DNA of 64,000 nt from Erythrobacter sp. SDW2 (GCF_021431965.1 NZ_CP090370.1:1674001-1738000), one strand, 5' to 3'; positions 6,764-13,399 are shown, numbered from the stretch's first letter. Made by a program: numbers and translations. The notes: generated by a model not told the origin, from the sequence alone.

Positions 6764-9394
6764 TTACTCGGTCCGCAATCGCTCGATTGCCTGCGCCAGC
6801 GCGACGTAAAGCTTGCCCATATCGCTGCTGAGCAAGGTTACGCCGATGGCATTGCCGTCACGCGTCGAGAGCATGGTCCGCAGCATCGCTTCGAAATCGT
6901 GAATGTAGCGGCTTACATGGTCCCGGAAGTCCACGTCGGCGTCATAGAGTTCCGCAATCTCGCGTGCTTCGGTGTTGGAAAGCAGGCTGACCGCGCGGCG
7001 GGTAAAGATGCCTCGATCCCCGCGCAGGTAGCTGGCCCAAGCGGTATCCGTGACATCGGTCGACAGCGACTTCGCAATGTCGATAGCGTTGGAATTGAGC
7101 GCCTCTGTAATCAATGCCACCCGACGGGCAAAATCATTGTCGACCTGCTCCTGCGCGCGTTCGCGGGCACGCTCGACGCGGTTCTCGAGATTGCCGGCGA
7201 GCTCGTTCACCAACGAAAGCTGGTCGCGCAATTGCACCGCTGCCTCGCGTGCCGAGGCGGCCGAGCGGGTGGCCGCTTCGTCGAGCGCGGCAATGGCCTG
7301 GTCCGAATTCTGGCGAACCGCCCGGTCGATGGTCTCCGCCGCACGCGAGCCGATGCCTTGCGCGATCTTCTCAATGGTTTCGCTGCTTTCCTCGCCAGCT
7401 AGCGCAAGGGCTTCGCGCACCTTGTCTTCGAGCAAGGTGATCGCCTCGCGCAACTGCTCTTGCGAGCTTTCGGAGATCCGCTGACCGTCTTCCTCCAGCA
7501 TCCCCAGTGCCTCGCGCAGGCTGGTGATCTCGGCACTGTAGTCGGCGCTCAGGGCCTTGAGGCGAGCGTGCAACGCTCCGGTCCGTATCTGCAGGGACTC
7601 GCCACTGTCATTGGCGGCGATGACATAGTTGGAGATCGATACCGACCGGGCCACGCTTTCCGACAGCATTGCCCCAAGAGTTTCGGTCGATTGCCGCGCA
7701 GCCTCGAGACGTTGCTCGGCCACGCCGATAGCGTTCGGCAAATCGTTCCTGCTGTGTTGCACGCTCGCCTGGATGAGTTCGAGCAAGCGCACGCAGGCTT
7801 CGGTCATATCGGCCACGACAGACTGGGTCGCGGCCATGTCGGCCCGGCTTGAAGCAAGGTCCTTTGCCATGGCCAGCGTGGTTTCGAGCAAGCCTTCCTG
7901 TGCCGTACGGCTTTCGCCCAGAAGGCCTTCGATCTGTGCGGTAAGTTCGGCCACCTTGGCGGTCGCAGCTTCGGTGCTGGTCTGCAGGGCGAGGGCATGC
8001 TCGGCCTGTCGGGCCCGGCGGGCCTCCAGCTCGCTATCGATGGCCGCGAGTTGCTCTTGCAATGCGGTAAGCGCAGCTGCCTCGCTGGCTTCCAACTGGG
8101 CTCGCCGCTCGTCGAGCTGTCCTGCAAAGATTGCATTGCGCTCGGCGATATTGGCATCAATGCGCGCAGCCTCGTCTCGGAGCTCCTGCTGTTTCTTGCC
8201 GGCAGCTGCGAGAAACTGGTCATCGATCGACCGAATCTGCTCTACGGCCTCGGTCAGCCGTTGCTGCATTCCGTCGATCTGCCCGATCCACAGCGCCTTT
8301 GCTTCTTCCTCGCCTTGGCGGATAGCGCGGGCAATGGTCTCGCTCTCGTTGCGCAAGCCAGTAAGGCGGGCGCGCATCGATTTGAGCGCTTCCTCTTCCT
8401 GTTCCTCCAGCATGCCGCGGGTCGAGCCGAGTTCTTCCGCCAGCTGGTTCGCCCGGCGCCGCAAAGCGGCCAGGCTGTGGACCTCGCGGCTGTCGAGTTC
8501 ACCGCGAAATTCCTCGCTTGCCTCGCGCAGGGCGGCAAAGCGGGCAGAGGTGATTTCCTCCATCTTGACCGCTTGCGCTTCGAAAGCGGCGAGAGTGGCC
8601 TCGACTTTTTCGCTCAATGCAGCGACCTGCCGCTCGCTCGCGGCACCGAACTCGTTGAGTCGGGCAAAGCCGCTCACCAGCCGCTCGATCTGGCCCTCGG
8701 CCGTGCCGCCGGCATTGCCGATCTGGTTGGCAACATCGCGCGCCGAATTGGCAATCACAGGCAGGTCGCCACGTAGCTTGTCCATGTTCTCCATGGCGAT
8801 AGCGCTGACGCTGGCGATCTGTTCGACCTGGGCGGAATTGTTGCGAACCAGTAATTGCAGCCTGTCGGCATGCTCGCTGAGCCGTTCGCTAGCGATGCGG
8901 CCGAGAGATTCCAGCTCGAGACCCTGCGAGGCAAGAAATTCCCGCGCCAGGCTCAACTCTCGATTTACCGTTGTCAGGCGCTGTTCGAGCAGCGCAGATT
9001 CCGACGACAAGGCCGAGGCTGCCTCGGCATAGCGGCGCGCGGCAAGGGTGCTGTTGCGCTGGAACAGCACCCAGAGGGCGAGCACTACCAGTACCGGGAT
9101 GGCCCATTGACCGATCCAGCCGGTCCATTGCTGCGGTGTCGTCCCGGCGAGCAAAGCAGCGCGGTTGGCCCAGGCGAAGAACACTGTCCAGGCAGCAATG
9201 GCGAGGAGCGCTGCGGCTGGAACGAGCCAGCCGAAAGTGCGCCGTGCAGGCTCTTCGGCCCACTCATCTTCCCAGCTGTCCTCCAGCACCAGATCATCCT
9301 CGGCGGCCGCAACGGCGCCGTTCTCTGCCGGTGTTTGCGCCGTGCCATCGCCGCCCGAAGCGCCGACTGCCCTGATATGATGACCCCCGCTCAT
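6764..9394 (-). CDS. Large membrane-anchored coiled-coil protein, function unknown
   Basis: An 876-residue protein of unknown function. An acidic, disordered N-terminus (about 1-50, rich in Asp, Glu and Trp) is followed by two hydrophobic segments, about 53-75 and 93-112. The remaining 750 residues are almost entirely Ala/Glu/Arg/Leu-rich heptad-like sequence, predicting a very long coiled coil on the side of the membrane opposite the 20-residue loop. Composition resembles proteins annotated as apolipoprotein-like or as methyl-accepting-like coiled coils, but no signalling hairpin or enzymatic motif is visible. It diverges from the Hpt-like gene at 9465, sharing a 70-base upstream region, and its end is close to the convergent DUF1467 gene. 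Confidence 0.75.
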   Translation of the reverse strand: MSGGHHIRAVGASGGDGTAQTPAENGAVAAAEDDLVLEDSWEDEWAEEPARRTFGWLVPAAALLAIAAWTVFFAWANRAALLAGTTPQQWTGWIGQWAIPVLVVLALWVLFQRNSTLAARRYAEAASALSSESALLEQRLTTVNRELSLAREFLASQGLELESLGRIASERLSEHADRLQLLVRNNSAQVEQIASVSAIAMENMDKLRGDLPVIANSARDVANQIGNAGGTAEGQIERLVSGFARLNEFGAASERQVAALSEKVEATLAAFEAQAVKMEEITSARFAALREASEEFRGELDSREVHSLAALRRRANQLAEELGSTRGMLEEQEEEALKSMRARLTGLRNESETIARAIRQGEEEAKALWIGQIDGMQQRLTEAVEQIRSIDDQFLAAAGKKQQELRDEAARIDANIAERNAIFAGQLDERRAQLEASEAAALTALQEQLAAIDSELEARRARQAEHALALQTSTEAATAKVAELTAQIEGLLGESRTAQEGLLETTLAMAKDLASSRADMAATQSVVADMTEACVRLLELIQASVQHSRNDLPNAIGVAEQRLEAARQSTETLGAMLSESVARSVSISNYVIAANDSGESLQIRTGALHARLKALSADYSAEITSLREALGMLEEDGQRISESSQEQLREAITLLEDKVREALALAGEESSETIEKIAQGIGSRAAETIDRAVRQNSDQAIAALDEAATRSAASAREAAVQLRDQLSLVNELAGNLENRVERARERAQEQVDNDFARRVALITEALNSNAIDIAKSLSTDVTDTAWASYLRGDRGIFTRRAVSLLSNTEAREIAELYDADVDFRDHVSRYIHDFEAMLRTMLSTRDGNAIGVTLLSSDMGKLYVALAQAIERLRTE

Positions 9395-9464
9395 GGCCGG
9401 GAATCTACCACTTTTGCGTCACGATTAAACCCCGCTTTAACCTTAACGCGATAGACCGAGTGTC

Positions 9465-9764
9465 ATGGCCTTTGAAAATGGTGCCTTTTCCGCCACGCTG
9501 GCGGCTGCTGCAGGGGGCGATGCCGCCCTGCATGCAGAGTTGCGCCTGGCCTTTCGCGAGAGCGTGGCGCAGCAGATCGATCTGCTTTCGCGCGCCCGTT
9601 GCGACGGCAACTGGCTGGTCGCAGCGCAGCGGATCAAGGGGCTCGCCGCGAGCTTTCATGCCGAACCGCTTATGGTACTGGCCGAAGAAGCTGTGTCCAG
9701 TGCGCCTGGCGATCCGGTCGTTTTGCGCAAGCTTGACCGTTTCCTCGCCGAGTTCGACGAATAG
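9465..9764 (+). CDS. Hpt-like helical protein lacking the phospho-accepting histidine
   Basis: A 99-residue protein predicted to be an alpha-helical bundle. Residues around 52-75 (AAQRIKGLAASFHAEPL, then LAEEA) align naturally with the core of histidine phosphotransfer domains, AHxLKGxAxxxGAxxLxxLA. The histidine that would carry the phosphoryl group is Gln here, read directly as CAG. A later His (in SFHAEPL) is not at the catalytic position. It is first in a four-gene run ending in a histidine-kinase-like gene. The fold assignment is inference from the motif; the absence of His is seen in the sequence. Confidence 0.68.
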   Translation: MAFENGAFSATLAAAAGGDAALHAELRLAFRESVAQQIDLLSRARCDGNWLVAAQRIKGLAASFHAEPLMVLAEEAVSSAPGDPVVLRKLDRFLAEFDE

Positions 9765-9836
9765 CGCAAAAGCCGGGGCAGGCTCCGCTGCTCTCGCTTG
9801 GATTTCGTATGGCCTGCGCCTATCGCTGCAACCGCG

Positions 9837-11012
9837 ATGGGATCGGACGATACTTCTCGGATAGCCTTGCTTTCGCTCGGTCCGGCCACGGGCATCGGTG
9901 GCAATCGACGCGTCGTGGGCGGGGTGAGCGTGCTGGAGCGGCAGGTCGACGTTGCGCTGGCATTGGGATGCGGGAGGATTTGGCTGTCGACGCCCGAACA
10001 GGACGGTCTGGCAATCCGGGCGCAACGGATGGCCGAGGCTGGCGGGGCACAGTTTCGCCTGATCCAGCGCGGTCGGCAATTGCTCGGTAGCTTGCGCCAA
10101 CAGGATGAACTGCTGGTGCTGGCAGAAGGTCTCGTGGCCGGTGAGAGTAAGGCGCTTGAACCTCTCTCCGGTGGTCCCGTGATTCTTACTATTCCGGCGG
10201 CAACGGGCATGGCAGGCGGTTTCGAACGGCTCGATCGTGACCACTGTTGGGCGGGCGGAATGGTCCTGCCCGGGCGGGTCATCGAGCGGCTCGATGAATT
10301 GGGTGGGGATATCGAGCCAGTCTCCGCCCTGTTGCGCGCAGGCCGGGCGGCACGAGTGCGTGAGCGAGCGATTCCGGAACCGTGGGCGGCGACTGGCCAG
10401 TGGTCGCTCTCGACGGATCGTGTGCCGGTGGCCGATAGCGGTGTGGATGCAGGGGGTTCTTCCTATCTGCAACGATTCGTGACTGAACCGATTGGCGCAT
10501 GGTTGGTCGGTCGACCGCGGCTTGCCTTGGCCACACTCGGTTCGGGCGCGCTTGCCGCGATTGGCGCACTCGCGTGCCTGTACCTGGCATTGCCAGCGTT
10601 CTCATTGTTGCTGGTGGCGCTTTCCTGTTGCTTGTTGCAATGTGGGGTTCTTTCGAAAAAGCAGGGCGATGCGCGGGTCTTCTCGGCGCCGAAGCCGGGT
10701 CGGCTGGATGCCCTCCTGCCCATGGTTGCGGAACCGGTGGGTGCTCTGGCGTTGGCCTCCGGCCTCCACACGCAATTCGGTTGGTCTTCCACGCTTTACA
10801 TCGCATTGTTGACGGTGGCGACGTGGTTGCTCGCAGGGCTCGGCAAGCATCGCATGGCCGAACTTTTTACCGACCGCGTCGCCCTCTGGCTCGGAACTGG
10901 CCTCGGTGGTCTGGCAGGTTTCTGGATCGCAGGCCCGGCCCTCGCCAGCGCGCTGTCTCTGGCCGCGATTTTGCTTAACATGCGCAACCAGCCAGCAATA
11001 ACGCAGGCTTAA
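9837..11012 (+). CDS. Two-domain protein: nucleotidyltransferase-like N-terminus and membrane C-terminus
   Basis: A 391-residue protein of uncertain function. The first 190 or so residues resemble a GT-A/nucleotidyltransferase fold: GGNRRVVGGVSVLERQVDVA followed by a Rossmann-like alternation and WAGGMVLPG. The C-terminal half has about five hydrophobic helices, beginning near the LALATLGSGALAAIGALA stretch. This layout recalls fusions of sugar- or inositol-phosphate nucleotidyltransferases with CDP-alcohol phosphatidyltransferases, but I do not see the DGxxAR signature of the latter, so activity is doubtful. ATG at 9837 was chosen; an in-frame TTG at 9798 is possible, and neither has a clear ribosome binding site. 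Confidence 0.6.
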   Translation: MGSDDTSRIALLSLGPATGIGGNRRVVGGVSVLERQVDVALALGCGRIWLSTPEQDGLAIRAQRMAEAGGAQFRLIQRGRQLLGSLRQQDELLVLAEGLVAGESKALEPLSGGPVILTIPAATGMAGGFERLDRDHCWAGGMVLPGRVIERLDELGGDIEPVSALLRAGRAARVRERAIPEPWAATGQWSLSTDRVPVADSGVDAGGSSYLQRFVTEPIGAWLVGRPRLALATLGSGALAAIGALACLYLALPAFSLLLVALSCCLLQCGVLSKKQGDARVFSAPKPGRLDALLPMVAEPVGALALASGLHTQFGWSSTLYIALLTVATWLLAGLGKHRMAELFTDRVALWLGTGLGGLAGFWIAGPALASALSLAAILLNMRNQPAITQA

Positions 11013-11028
11013 CTATGCTGCGTTAAGC
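11007..11028. repeat. Perfect 7-bp inverted repeat GCTTAAC-N8-GTTAAGC
   Basis: Arms at 11007-11013 and 11022-11028 with an 8-base spacer. The left arm contains the TAA stop of the preceding gene, and the site lies about 22 bases before the next start codon. It could be an operator or a small RNA hairpin. The TTAA halves are 10 bases apart, which does not fit the N7 spacing of a CtrA box. Confidence 0.45.
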
Positions 11029-11050
11029 GTGGCCGATGATCGAGGCTGCT

Positions 11051-12013
11051 ATGACCAATGCTGAAACCCCTGTGTCCGCCGAGGCACCTGTCGAAGCGAT
11101 CCTGCGCAATGAGCTCGCGCATGGCGATGTCATGCTCGGCACGATCGGGCCGATCCTTGGCCACTTGATCGCCAACCACGACCACTCGTTGTTCAGCGAC
11201 GAGATCGTGGCCCGAATCCGCGGCATGGTGAATGGCATCGCCCAGCAGTTGCTCGAACTCCAGGCCGGTGAAACCGACGAGGTCGATCCGCATGGTTTCG
11301 CCATCCGGAACGCGGAAGATTTGGCCGAGATGATCGCGGCCGATCCGGCGTTTCTGACCCATTGCCACGGCCTCGCCATCGAATGCCATCTGGCCGAGCG
11401 GCTGCGCGGGCGCAACGCGATCGATCCGGTGCTTTCACCCCTGATGCAGTCGTTGGTTGCGTCCGACGATCCGGCGACTGCCGCGCTGGCAATGCAGGCG
11501 CTGGCTTCGCAAGCCCGTTTCGTACAGCGCCAGAAGCGCATGCAGCTGCCGCTTGCCGAGCTTCCTGCCGACCTGTTCCACCACGCATTGATGACCTGGC
11601 GCAGCTATGCCGGTGGCCTCGATACGGCTTTGGTGGGCCGGATCGAGACGCGAATGCGCAAGGATTTCGACGAAAGTAGCAGCCGTCTCGGCTTGCTTTC
11701 GCGCTTGGTCGAAGGGATGGGCGGGGGTGCCCGTGCTGCGTTGTCGGTTTCGCATGCCGGCGTTGCACTGTTCCTGACCGCCCTGGCTTCGTCTTCGCAG
11801 CAGGAGCGTGACGTCGTTGCACTTTCGACCAACGACCGCCAGCTGGCCCGCCTTGCCCTCGCACTGCGCAGTTCTGGTCTCAGTCCGAAGGAGGTCGAGG
11901 AGCAGTTTCTCTACCTCCATCCCGAGATTTCGCTGCCGGAAGGCTTCTCGCAGCTGCGGGTCGACCGGGCACAGGCGATGCTCGCCGCCTCGGGCGGATG
12001 GCGGACAAGCTGA
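11051..12013 (+). CDS. Helical protein of unknown function in a signalling-like cluster
   Basis: A 320-residue soluble, Ala/Leu-rich and mostly helical protein that I do not recognise with confidence; a distant relation to DUF2336-type alpha-helical proteins found near sensor kinases is possible. No membrane segment, signal peptide or catalytic motif is evident. ATG at 11051 was chosen over 11036 because a GAGG element sits five bases before it. The TGA is three bases before the GTG start of the histidine-kinase-like gene, so the two are probably co-translated. Confidence 0.65.
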   Translation: MTNAETPVSAEAPVEAILRNELAHGDVMLGTIGPILGHLIANHDHSLFSDEIVARIRGMVNGIAQQLLELQAGETDEVDPHGFAIRNAEDLAEMIAADPAFLTHCHGLAIECHLAERLRGRNAIDPVLSPLMQSLVASDDPATAALAMQALASQARFVQRQKRMQLPLAELPADLFHHALMTWRSYAGGLDTALVGRIETRMRKDFDESSSRLGLLSRLVEGMGGGARAALSVSHAGVALFLTALASSSQQERDVVALSTNDRQLARLALALRSSGLSPKEVEEQFLYLHPEISLPEGFSQLRVDRAQAMLAASGGWRTS

Positions 12014-12016
12014 TCC

Positions 12017-13399
12017 GTGAGCCGCGTTTCCGATTCCATTCTTGCCAAGGCACGCACTGACGCAGACGACCGGCTGGTCGAAGCGGACGAGCCCCTTGCA
12101 CGGCTCCAGCGCGCCTGCGGCGGTGAACTGCCGGGCGCGATTGCCATTCACGAGCTGCGCCAGCTGGTCCGCAAGGCCCGTTCGATGGACCTGCGTCTCG
12201 CCCGCACGATCCGCGCCTTCGACGGCAATGACCGCATCACGGCGTGGGTCGAAGTTGTTCCTTACGAAGGAAAGAACGAACGCGGCTGTTCCATCTCTGT
12301 CGCGACCTGGCAGGTTTCGGCGCCCGTCAGCGGGACCGAAGACGATGCCGCCGCCCGCCGCGACGCCATCGACAATGCCTTGGCCGAACTGCATGCCCGG
12401 CTCGATCCGCAACAGCGCATCCTGACAGTCGATACCGAAGCGGAGGACCTGCAATCACTGGTCCGCCGGATCGAAGCCGATCCGGGCAAAGCATGGACAG
12501 ACTTCGTCAGCATTCCAGGCAACCTGCACGCCCAGCCATTGCACTGGCGCCTGCTCGATCAGGCCCGCTGCGAGGTTGAGGGTAGTCCGCGCCAATGGAC
12601 CGTGCGCCTTATCCCCATCGGCGAACCTGTTCCGGGCAGCGAAGGCTTCGAGCTCTACCTCGTCGCCAACCGCGCCTGGGCCAAGCGCGGCGATCGTCGA
12701 CGTAGCCAGAACCAAGAAGTGCAGGCCCGGCTCGGCCGTGACCTGTCGCCGGTGTTGCGCCAGCCGATCTCGCGCATTATCGCCAATGCAGAGACAATCC
12801 GCACCAAACTCGCCGGGCCGCTGGCCGATGAATACAGCGACTATGCCGCCGATATCGCTGCCGCGGGTCAGCACCTGCTCTCGCTGATCGACGACCTCGC
12901 GGATCTGGAAGTGATCGAGGCAGAGGGCTTTTCGACCGCCCCCGACAGGATCGACCTGGTCGATGTCGTGCGGCAAGCGGCGGGCATCCTCGGGGTTACT
13001 GCGCAGGAAAAGGGCATCACCATCGAGATGCCCGATCGCGACAAGCGCTGCCCGGCGGTGGGCGAATTCCGCCGCGTGTTGCAGGTGTTGCTCAATCTCA
13101 TCGGCAATGCGATCCGCTATTCGCCGCAAGGTTCGCAAATCCGGGTCGAACTGGCGCGCAACGGCAAGGTCGCCGGGGCGCGGGTGATCGACCAGGGACC
13201 GGGTATCGACAAGGCCCAGCAAGCGGCGATCTTCGAGAAGTTCGAACGGCTTGGCCGCAGCGGTGACGGCGGGTCCGGGCTTGGTCTGTACATCTCTCGC
13301 CGCTTGGCGCGAGCGATGGGCGGCGACCTCAAAGTCAAAAGCGAGCCGGGCGAAGGGGCGACCTTCACTCTCACCCTGCCGGTCAATTCCGAAACGTGA
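12017..13399 (+). CDS. Histidine-kinase-like protein with an altered H-box
   Basis: A 460-residue cytosolic protein without membrane segments. An N-terminal region of about 230 residues of unknown fold precedes a dimerisation-like segment and a C-terminal HATPase domain. The ATPase motifs are complete: N-box VLLNLIGNAIRYSP, G1 DQGPGID, F-box IFEKFERL and G2 GGSGLGLYI. In the expected H-box, SHELRTPL is replaced by SPVLRQPI, so the phospho-accepting His is Pro (codon CCG). It may bind ATP and signal without autophosphorylation at that site, or act on a partner. Start is GTG at 12017, three bases after the previous stop. Confidence 0.85.
   Translation: MSRVSDSILAKARTDADDRLVEADEPLARLQRACGGELPGAIAIHELRQLVRKARSMDLRLARTIRAFDGNDRITAWVEVVPYEGKNERGCSISVATWQVSAPVSGTEDDAAARRDAIDNALAELHARLDPQQRILTVDTEAEDLQSLVRRIEADPGKAWTDFVSIPGNLHAQPLHWRLLDQARCEVEGSPRQWTVRLIPIGEPVPGSEGFELYLVANRAWAKRGDRRRSQNQEVQARLGRDLSPVLRQPISRIIANAETIRTKLAGPLADEYSDYAADIAAAGQHLLSLIDDLADLEVIEAEGFSTAPDRIDLVDVVRQAAGILGVTAQEKGITIEMPDRDKRCPAVGEFRRVLQVLLNLIGNAIRYSPQGSQIRVELARNGKVAGARVIDQGPGIDKAQQAAIFEKFERLGRSGDGGSGLGLYISRRLARAMGGDLKVKSEPGEGATFTLTLPVNSET

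Follow-up and report, generated by a model that had tools for sequence, protein, structure and literature searches.

The window, a 64,000-nt stretch of DNA from Erythrobacter sp. SDW2 (GCF_021431965.1 NZ_CP090370.1:1674001-1738000), contains a run of four genes (9465-13399) arranged head to tail with short gaps. They encode a pseudo-histidine phosphotransfer (Hpt) protein of 99 aa (9465..9764, + strand), a nucleotidyltransferase combined with a six-helix membrane protein (9837..11012, + strand), a helical protein of 325 aa (11036..12013, + strand) and a pseudo-histidine kinase of 460 aa (12017..13399, + strand). The sequence-only reading described this four-gene run correctly, but the unit reaches a fifth, divergent gene (6764..9394, - strand) that it missed. 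This gene belongs to the same conserved neighbourhood and encodes a protein with two N-terminal TM segments, a long coiled coil and a strongly conserved C-terminal domain.

Loci sampled around the Hpt match in 76 genomes of the family display a recurring order: coiled-coil gene, Hpt, transferase-like gene, helical protein, kinase and citrate synthase. The two middle genes are often too diverged at these loci to be recognised by BLAST. At the cut-offs used, the kinase is found in 123 and the Hpt in 104 of 150 family genomes. Linkage of the two, to which the sequence-only reading attached much weight, holds at 66 of the 76 loci, where the kinase is present in the stretch sampled, but is broken in several other genomes in which the genes lie far apart. 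At least 10 genomes have also retained the pseudo-kinase after loss of the Hpt gene. An obligate pair is rejected on these grounds. Of the signalling or scaffold pair proposed earlier, a non-canonical part in binding or scaffolding is the best fit, and exclusive pairing is not supported.

The Hpt-like protein carries Gln55 (CAG, 9627-9629) within the stretch AAQRIKG, and thus reads QRIKG where PF01627 has the phospho-His motif HxxKG. In the window the protein has no Pfam match over any cut-off (PF01627 scores 12.7 bits against a 24.6-bit cut-off), and a PDB profile search returns no sequence matches, the kinship being visible there by fold comparison only. The AlphaFold model (pLDDT 92) contains five helices. 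Its top Foldseek matches are Hpt domains, including Caulobacter ShpA (27% identity), with weak E-values (≥0.2), and the best VIA match is HptB (Z 11.9, 2.2 Å, 96 residues). As a middling Z comes easily to helical bundles, more weight is carried by homology: a crown profile aligns with the canonical outgroup Hpt of the same locus at 98% in hhalign (7e-14), and these outgroup proteins are recognised by Pfam as PF01627 (4e-9 to 8e-10). The protein therefore adopts the four-helix fold of Hpt domains and is descended from them. In two other families of the order (f5 and f6), a divergent Hpt gene with the canonical AHKLKG flanks the same coiled-coil gene. Comparison of these sequences shows that the ancestor of the small protein was a canonical Hpt whose gene adjoined a TipN-like gene.

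The kinase is recognised by Pfam through HisKA (1.7e-7) and HATPase_c (5.9e-28), and its N, G1, F and G2 boxes are intact. The H-box acceptor His expected from PF00512/PF02518 is absent; the position is occupied by Pro245 (CCG, 12749-12751), in the context LSPVLRQPI against MSHELRTPL. None of 66 crown orthologous kinases linked to the Hpt has His there. Together with the window, these kinases show P (48), A (8), R (6), Q (3), N (1) and E (1), and the residues seen overall are P/A/R/Q/E/T/D/N. In a larger alignment of 87 pseudo-kinases, a few genomes being represented twice, the N/G1/F/G2 residues are retained in 83-87. The general-base Glu beside the His is also lost (V in 43, A in 35), and the Thr at +4 is mostly replaced by Gln (50/87), with A, G, K, T, P, E and V in the others. 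His is absent from all 87 with one exception, the crown kinase of G027 (L175 1398-2837), in which an H falls in the aligned column. The surrounding residues read DHSFKPS, the Glu being absent and the Pro displaced; this H is counted as non-canonical and may reflect chance or an alignment shift. The N-terminal region is PAS-like in canonical relatives. Scanning the genome contigs with the kinase as query returned unrelated kinases only. All recognisable HisKA-type kinases of the window genome are His-bearing, except the pseudo-kinase and a DivL (Tyr), and no PdhS-type H-box occurs elsewhere in this genome.

The Gln, the Pro and the intact ATP-binding motifs pointed out in the sequence-only reading are all confirmed. 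The alignment of homologues that it recommended gives another picture of the substitutes: neither residue is conserved, and both are rejected as conserved replacements. Among 73 Hpt relatives at the sampled loci the position is held by M (18), L (18), Q (16), W (13) and a few others, and His occurs in only one, a basal genome whose kinase is likewise His-bearing. Since the substitutes vary in both proteins (P/A/R/Q and others in the kinase, M/L/Q/W in the Hpt), loss of the His is the shared trait. In comparison with two congeners, the kinase has a dN/dS ratio of 0.05-0.10 and the Hpt one of 0.08-0.13. Judged by this range (0.05-0.13), the pseudo-kinase and the pseudo-Hpt are under strong purifying selection and in use. 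Sequencing error or a pseudogene is rejected, as the frames are open in many genera and dN/dS is low.

Canonical, His-bearing forms are present in other families of the order and in basal members of Sphingomonadaceae. Canonical relatives of the kinase are encoded immediately next to a DUF2336 gene, and their H-box reads SHELRTPLNAIIGF. The DUF2336-adjoining kinases of other families and basal genomes read MSHELRTPLNAIIGFAE, the signature of PleC/DivJ/PdhS kinases. In the crown pseudo-kinases the H-box His, the Glu and the PdhS-type signature are gone. A kinase tree places them with the DUF2336-linked canonical kinases (support 99/95), apart from DivL and the other controls, although the branches are long and the control set is small (DivL, five other window-genome kinases and one hybrid kinase from another family). 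Comparison shows that the kinase goes back to a canonical histidine kinase that was PdhS/PleC-like and linked to DUF2336. In one genome (G113, L189) the coiled-coil gene, a His-bearing Hpt, the transferase-like gene, DUF2336 and a His-bearing kinase lie within about 11 kb, an arrangement that is likely the starting state. In two basal genomes (L191, L192) the DUF2336-kinase pair lies, by inspection, downstream of flgK-/flgL-like genes. The pair is therefore likely tied to the flagellar cluster, which suggests an ancestral flagellar link for the DUF2336 family.

The timing of the losses was read from a tree of the coiled-coil protein, built from this one neighbouring gene in 114 genomes by a quick method. 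The tree shows one change of state for the Hpt and two for the kinase, and the Hpt change shares the crown stem branch (support 99) with one of the kinase changes. In no genome of the table does a His-less Hpt occur together with a kinase that keeps its His. The second kinase loss belongs to the basal genus of G126, where the Hpt is still His-bearing. It is well supported by these sequences that the phospho-His disappeared from both proteins on one branch, that of the ancestor of crown Sphingomonadaceae. The earlier judgement that a shared loss is hardly chance is thereby strengthened, given the common branch and the occurrence of His in 0/66 linked kinases and 1/73 Hpt. The same reading held that canonical homologues in close relatives would count against it. 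Such relatives exist, but only outside the crown clade, and they therefore date the loss and do not refute it. G126 itself (L196 8730-9476 and 10572-10925) has a short, degenerate His-less relative of the kinase, an Hpt that keeps its His and a canonical DivK; G008 (L195) is listed with it in the same basal genus, which possibly represents a second, independent start of the same process.

The protein encoded at 9837..11012 matches 4mnd in a PDB profile search (3.5e-6), and its AlphaFold model (pLDDT 90) matches AF2299 (4q7c/4o6m) over its whole length in Foldseek (3e-5, TM 0.5), which gives it an AF2299-type CDP-alcohol phosphotransferase fold. Because the catalytic motif D-x2-DG-x2-AR...G-x3-D-x3-D is missing from all 101 relatives, the membrane protein is probably a third pseudoenzyme of the run, older than the other two. 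Its gene is the fastest-evolving of the run (dN/dS 0.25-0.32). The helical protein encoded at 11036..12013 is below the Pfam cut-off for PF10098, and no protein of its genome exceeds that cut-off. Genes in the equivalent position beside canonical kinases match PF10098 at 2e-52 to 2e-64; the window protein aligns with these DUF2336 proteins at 80% in hhalign (E 1.4e-5), and a crown relative in G119 matches PF10098 at 3.9e-5. The hhalign result and the gene order are moderate evidence that the helical protein is a divergent DUF2336 member.

The coiled-coil protein (6764..9394) has 876 aa, its TM pair and coiled coil being assigned by inspection. The gene occurs in 146 of 150 family genomes and adjoins the Hpt in outgroups and in the crown, and its C-terminal domain is distributed class-wide, in proteins that reach about 2000 aa. 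TipN has 882 aa and GPR 2115 aa (PMC13170164), and the protein may be TipN/GPR-like, a likeness of architecture. In a genome from another alphaproteobacterial family (G385, L163 1653-9141), a hybrid kinase that includes receiver and Hpt domains immediately precedes a long relative of the coiled-coil gene, so that a signalling gene and a polarity-type coiled-coil gene are neighbours there too. The divergent intergenic region (9395..9464) contains a strongly conserved TAAACCC-N4-TTAACC element, and TTAAC occurs in 59 of 73 such regions against a shuffle mean of 6. The element may reflect CtrA control or a conserved promoter; as the CtrA-like TTAA-N7-TTAA is found in just 5 of the 73 regions, CtrA control remains a lead.

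DivK is the usual partner of PdhS-type kinases. With a Caulobacter DivK sequence as query, identity is 46-54% in crown genomes, including the window genome (L281), and 66-80% in those basal and outgroup genomes whose kinases are canonical, as well as in G008 and G126. Asp53 is retained in all, and the idea that DivK also lost its Asp is rejected. Across 55 genomes, 28 have both the kinase and DivK, 2 the kinase only, 9 DivK only and 16 neither (Fisher 7e-6, phylogeny ignored). Six crown genomes (G030, G031, G064, G074, G081 and G156) have lost the pseudo-kinase and retained DivK. As the pseudo-kinase and pseudo-Hpt are separable and DivK outlasts the pseudo-kinase in some genomes, the three are linked and not locked together. 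A PdhS-like H-box is found somewhere in 54 of 150 family genomes. DivK is therefore not orphaned everywhere, about a third of the family having a PdhS-like His kinase elsewhere, and the notion that no crown genome offers it a possible PdhS-type kinase is rejected. The divergence of DivK in the crown fits the report that DivJ-PleC-DivK is degenerate or lost in Sphingomonadales, with a divK-like gene of odd phylogeny (Brilli et al., PMC2877005).

The leading explanation, held tentatively, is that a former DivK-type phosphorelay became a DivL-like, ATP-gated pseudokinase with a receiver-binding pseudo-Hpt at the pole. The locus would be a cell-polarity or cell-cycle phosphorelay module that abandoned phosphotransfer. 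Both phospho-His were lost on one branch in the crown ancestor, the ATP-binding domain of the kinase and both folds staying strongly constrained. The pseudo-kinase may act as a dimer that is controlled by PAS and gated by ATP, and to whose DHp surface a receiver domain docks. This receiver is most likely the co-diverged DivK, which would be read out without phosphorylation, as by DivL in Caulobacter. The pseudo-Hpt could serve as a phosphorylation-dead receiver-binding decoy or adaptor, comparable to plant AHP6. To judge from gene order and architecture, both proteins probably sit at the pole together with the TipN-like coiled-coil protein of the membrane. Since both proteins were kept intact long after loss of the His, signalling probably proceeds by partner binding and not by the passing of phosphate; binding of the pseudo-kinase or the pseudo-Hpt to DivK or another receiver is suggested by analogy. 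The evolutionary part of this explanation is well supported, and the biochemical part we infer. A more specific statement is possible but more doubtful, namely that kinase and Hpt lost phosphotransfer at once and gave rise to a phosphate-free, nucleotide-gated polar complex, with DivK co-diverging and a dead lipid-type transferase as the third protein.

Other explanations are less probable. The intact ATP boxes, unlike those of DivL, could reflect real catalysis on another substrate. The ATP-binding domain might phosphorylate a His or other residue on a partner, in a heterodimer or on a separate substrate domain, as the P4 domain of CheA acts on P1. The ATP boxes are practically invariant, better preserved than a scaffold requires, and further His kinases are present in the genome. 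However, the obvious substrate, the neighbouring Hpt, also lost its His, the DHp general-base residue is gone and no conserved new substrate gene is found in the cluster, which makes such a trans-acting kinase unlikely.

A pseudo-kinase acting solely as a phosphatase of a response regulator such as DivK is rather improbable. The phosphatase activity of HisKA kinases can outlast the loss of the His, which it does not need; the Gln at +4 in 50 of 87 and the retained DivK Asp53 accord with this. The +4 position nevertheless varies among Q, A, G, K, T, P, E and V, the acidic residue at +1 has disappeared, and the canonical kinase form was lost by the lineage at the same time. An envelope or lipid-linked function is a similarly weak candidate. 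Here the run would serve the membrane transferase-like protein, regulated by the kinase, Hpt and DUF2336 proteins, and DivK and polarity would have no part in it. In loci with a broken run, the transferase-like gene is its most constant partner, and the match to the CDP-alcohol phosphotransferase fold is consistent with the proposal; the absence of the catalytic motif (0/101) and the rapid evolution of this gene (0.25-0.32) are not.

A decaying relic, a phosphorelay on its way out, is highly improbable: the Hpt gene has been lost repeatedly and the dead-site residues are variable, but the open frames, the dN/dS of 0.05-0.13, the invariant ATP boxes and the presence of the kinase in 123/150 and the Hpt in 104/150 genomes at the cut-offs used argue for constraint. 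The earlier suggestion that another residue at or near the site accepts the phosphate is just as improbable and unsupported, because the site is freely variable (Pro, Ala, Arg, Gln, Trp, Leu, Met and others) and no point in its favour was found.

Pseudo-kinases such as DivL are known. Here a kinase and a phosphotransfer protein lost their His on one branch and canonical ancestors survive in living relatives, so that the locus offers a dated natural experiment on the change from phosphorelay to binding machine. It also offers a concrete reason why DivJ-PleC-DivK control is reported to have broken down in sphingomonads, and makes polarity setting without DivJ-PleC-DivK control testable in this group.

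The closest known system is DivL, a kinase without the His that senses a phosphorylated response regulator and relays the signal by contact (PMC4211667). Both have PAS, DHp and CA domains, lack the acceptor His, keep the fold and belong to the DivK-signalling kinase lineage (PMC4211667). By analogy, the pseudo-kinase may bind DivK~P and regulate CckA in the manner of DivL. However, DivL carries a conserved Tyr (or Ala) at the H position, whereas in the pseudo-kinase this position is free, with Pro in the window. ATP binding is weak in DivL, and in the pseudo-kinase the ATP boxes are fully kept. The origin from a DUF2336-linked kinase also differs from that of DivL. The pseudo-kinase is not the sphingomonad DivL, as the window genome has a separate, Tyr-type DivL-like kinase (L249) that falls apart in the tree, reads MSYEFRTPL and has DivL (4q20, 9e-27) as its top PDB match. 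PleC/DivJ/PdhS kinases with a DUF2336 neighbour represent the ancestral kinase, in the same position beside DUF2336; they have SHELRTPLNAIIGF, whereas the crown forms lack the His, the Glu and the signature. In RcsD (YojN) of enterics, a kinase-like domain without the acceptor His is likewise part of a phosphorelay. RcsD keeps a working Hpt, whereas the Hpt of the cluster is dead too. Plant AHP6 has a residue change at the phospho-His. It shares with the pseudo-Hpt an Hpt fold without this His, but is of unrelated origin, the pseudo-Hpt being paired by gene order with a pseudo-kinase. AHP6 is described as a pseudo-phosphotransfer protein that inhibits a phosphorelay (PMC3572949). The study of Brilli et al. 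(2010; PMC2877005) addresses the same clade and pathway; there absence is inferred from best hits, whereas the present analysis identifies a single degenerate kinase, the dead Hpt next to it and the branch on which the loss took place.
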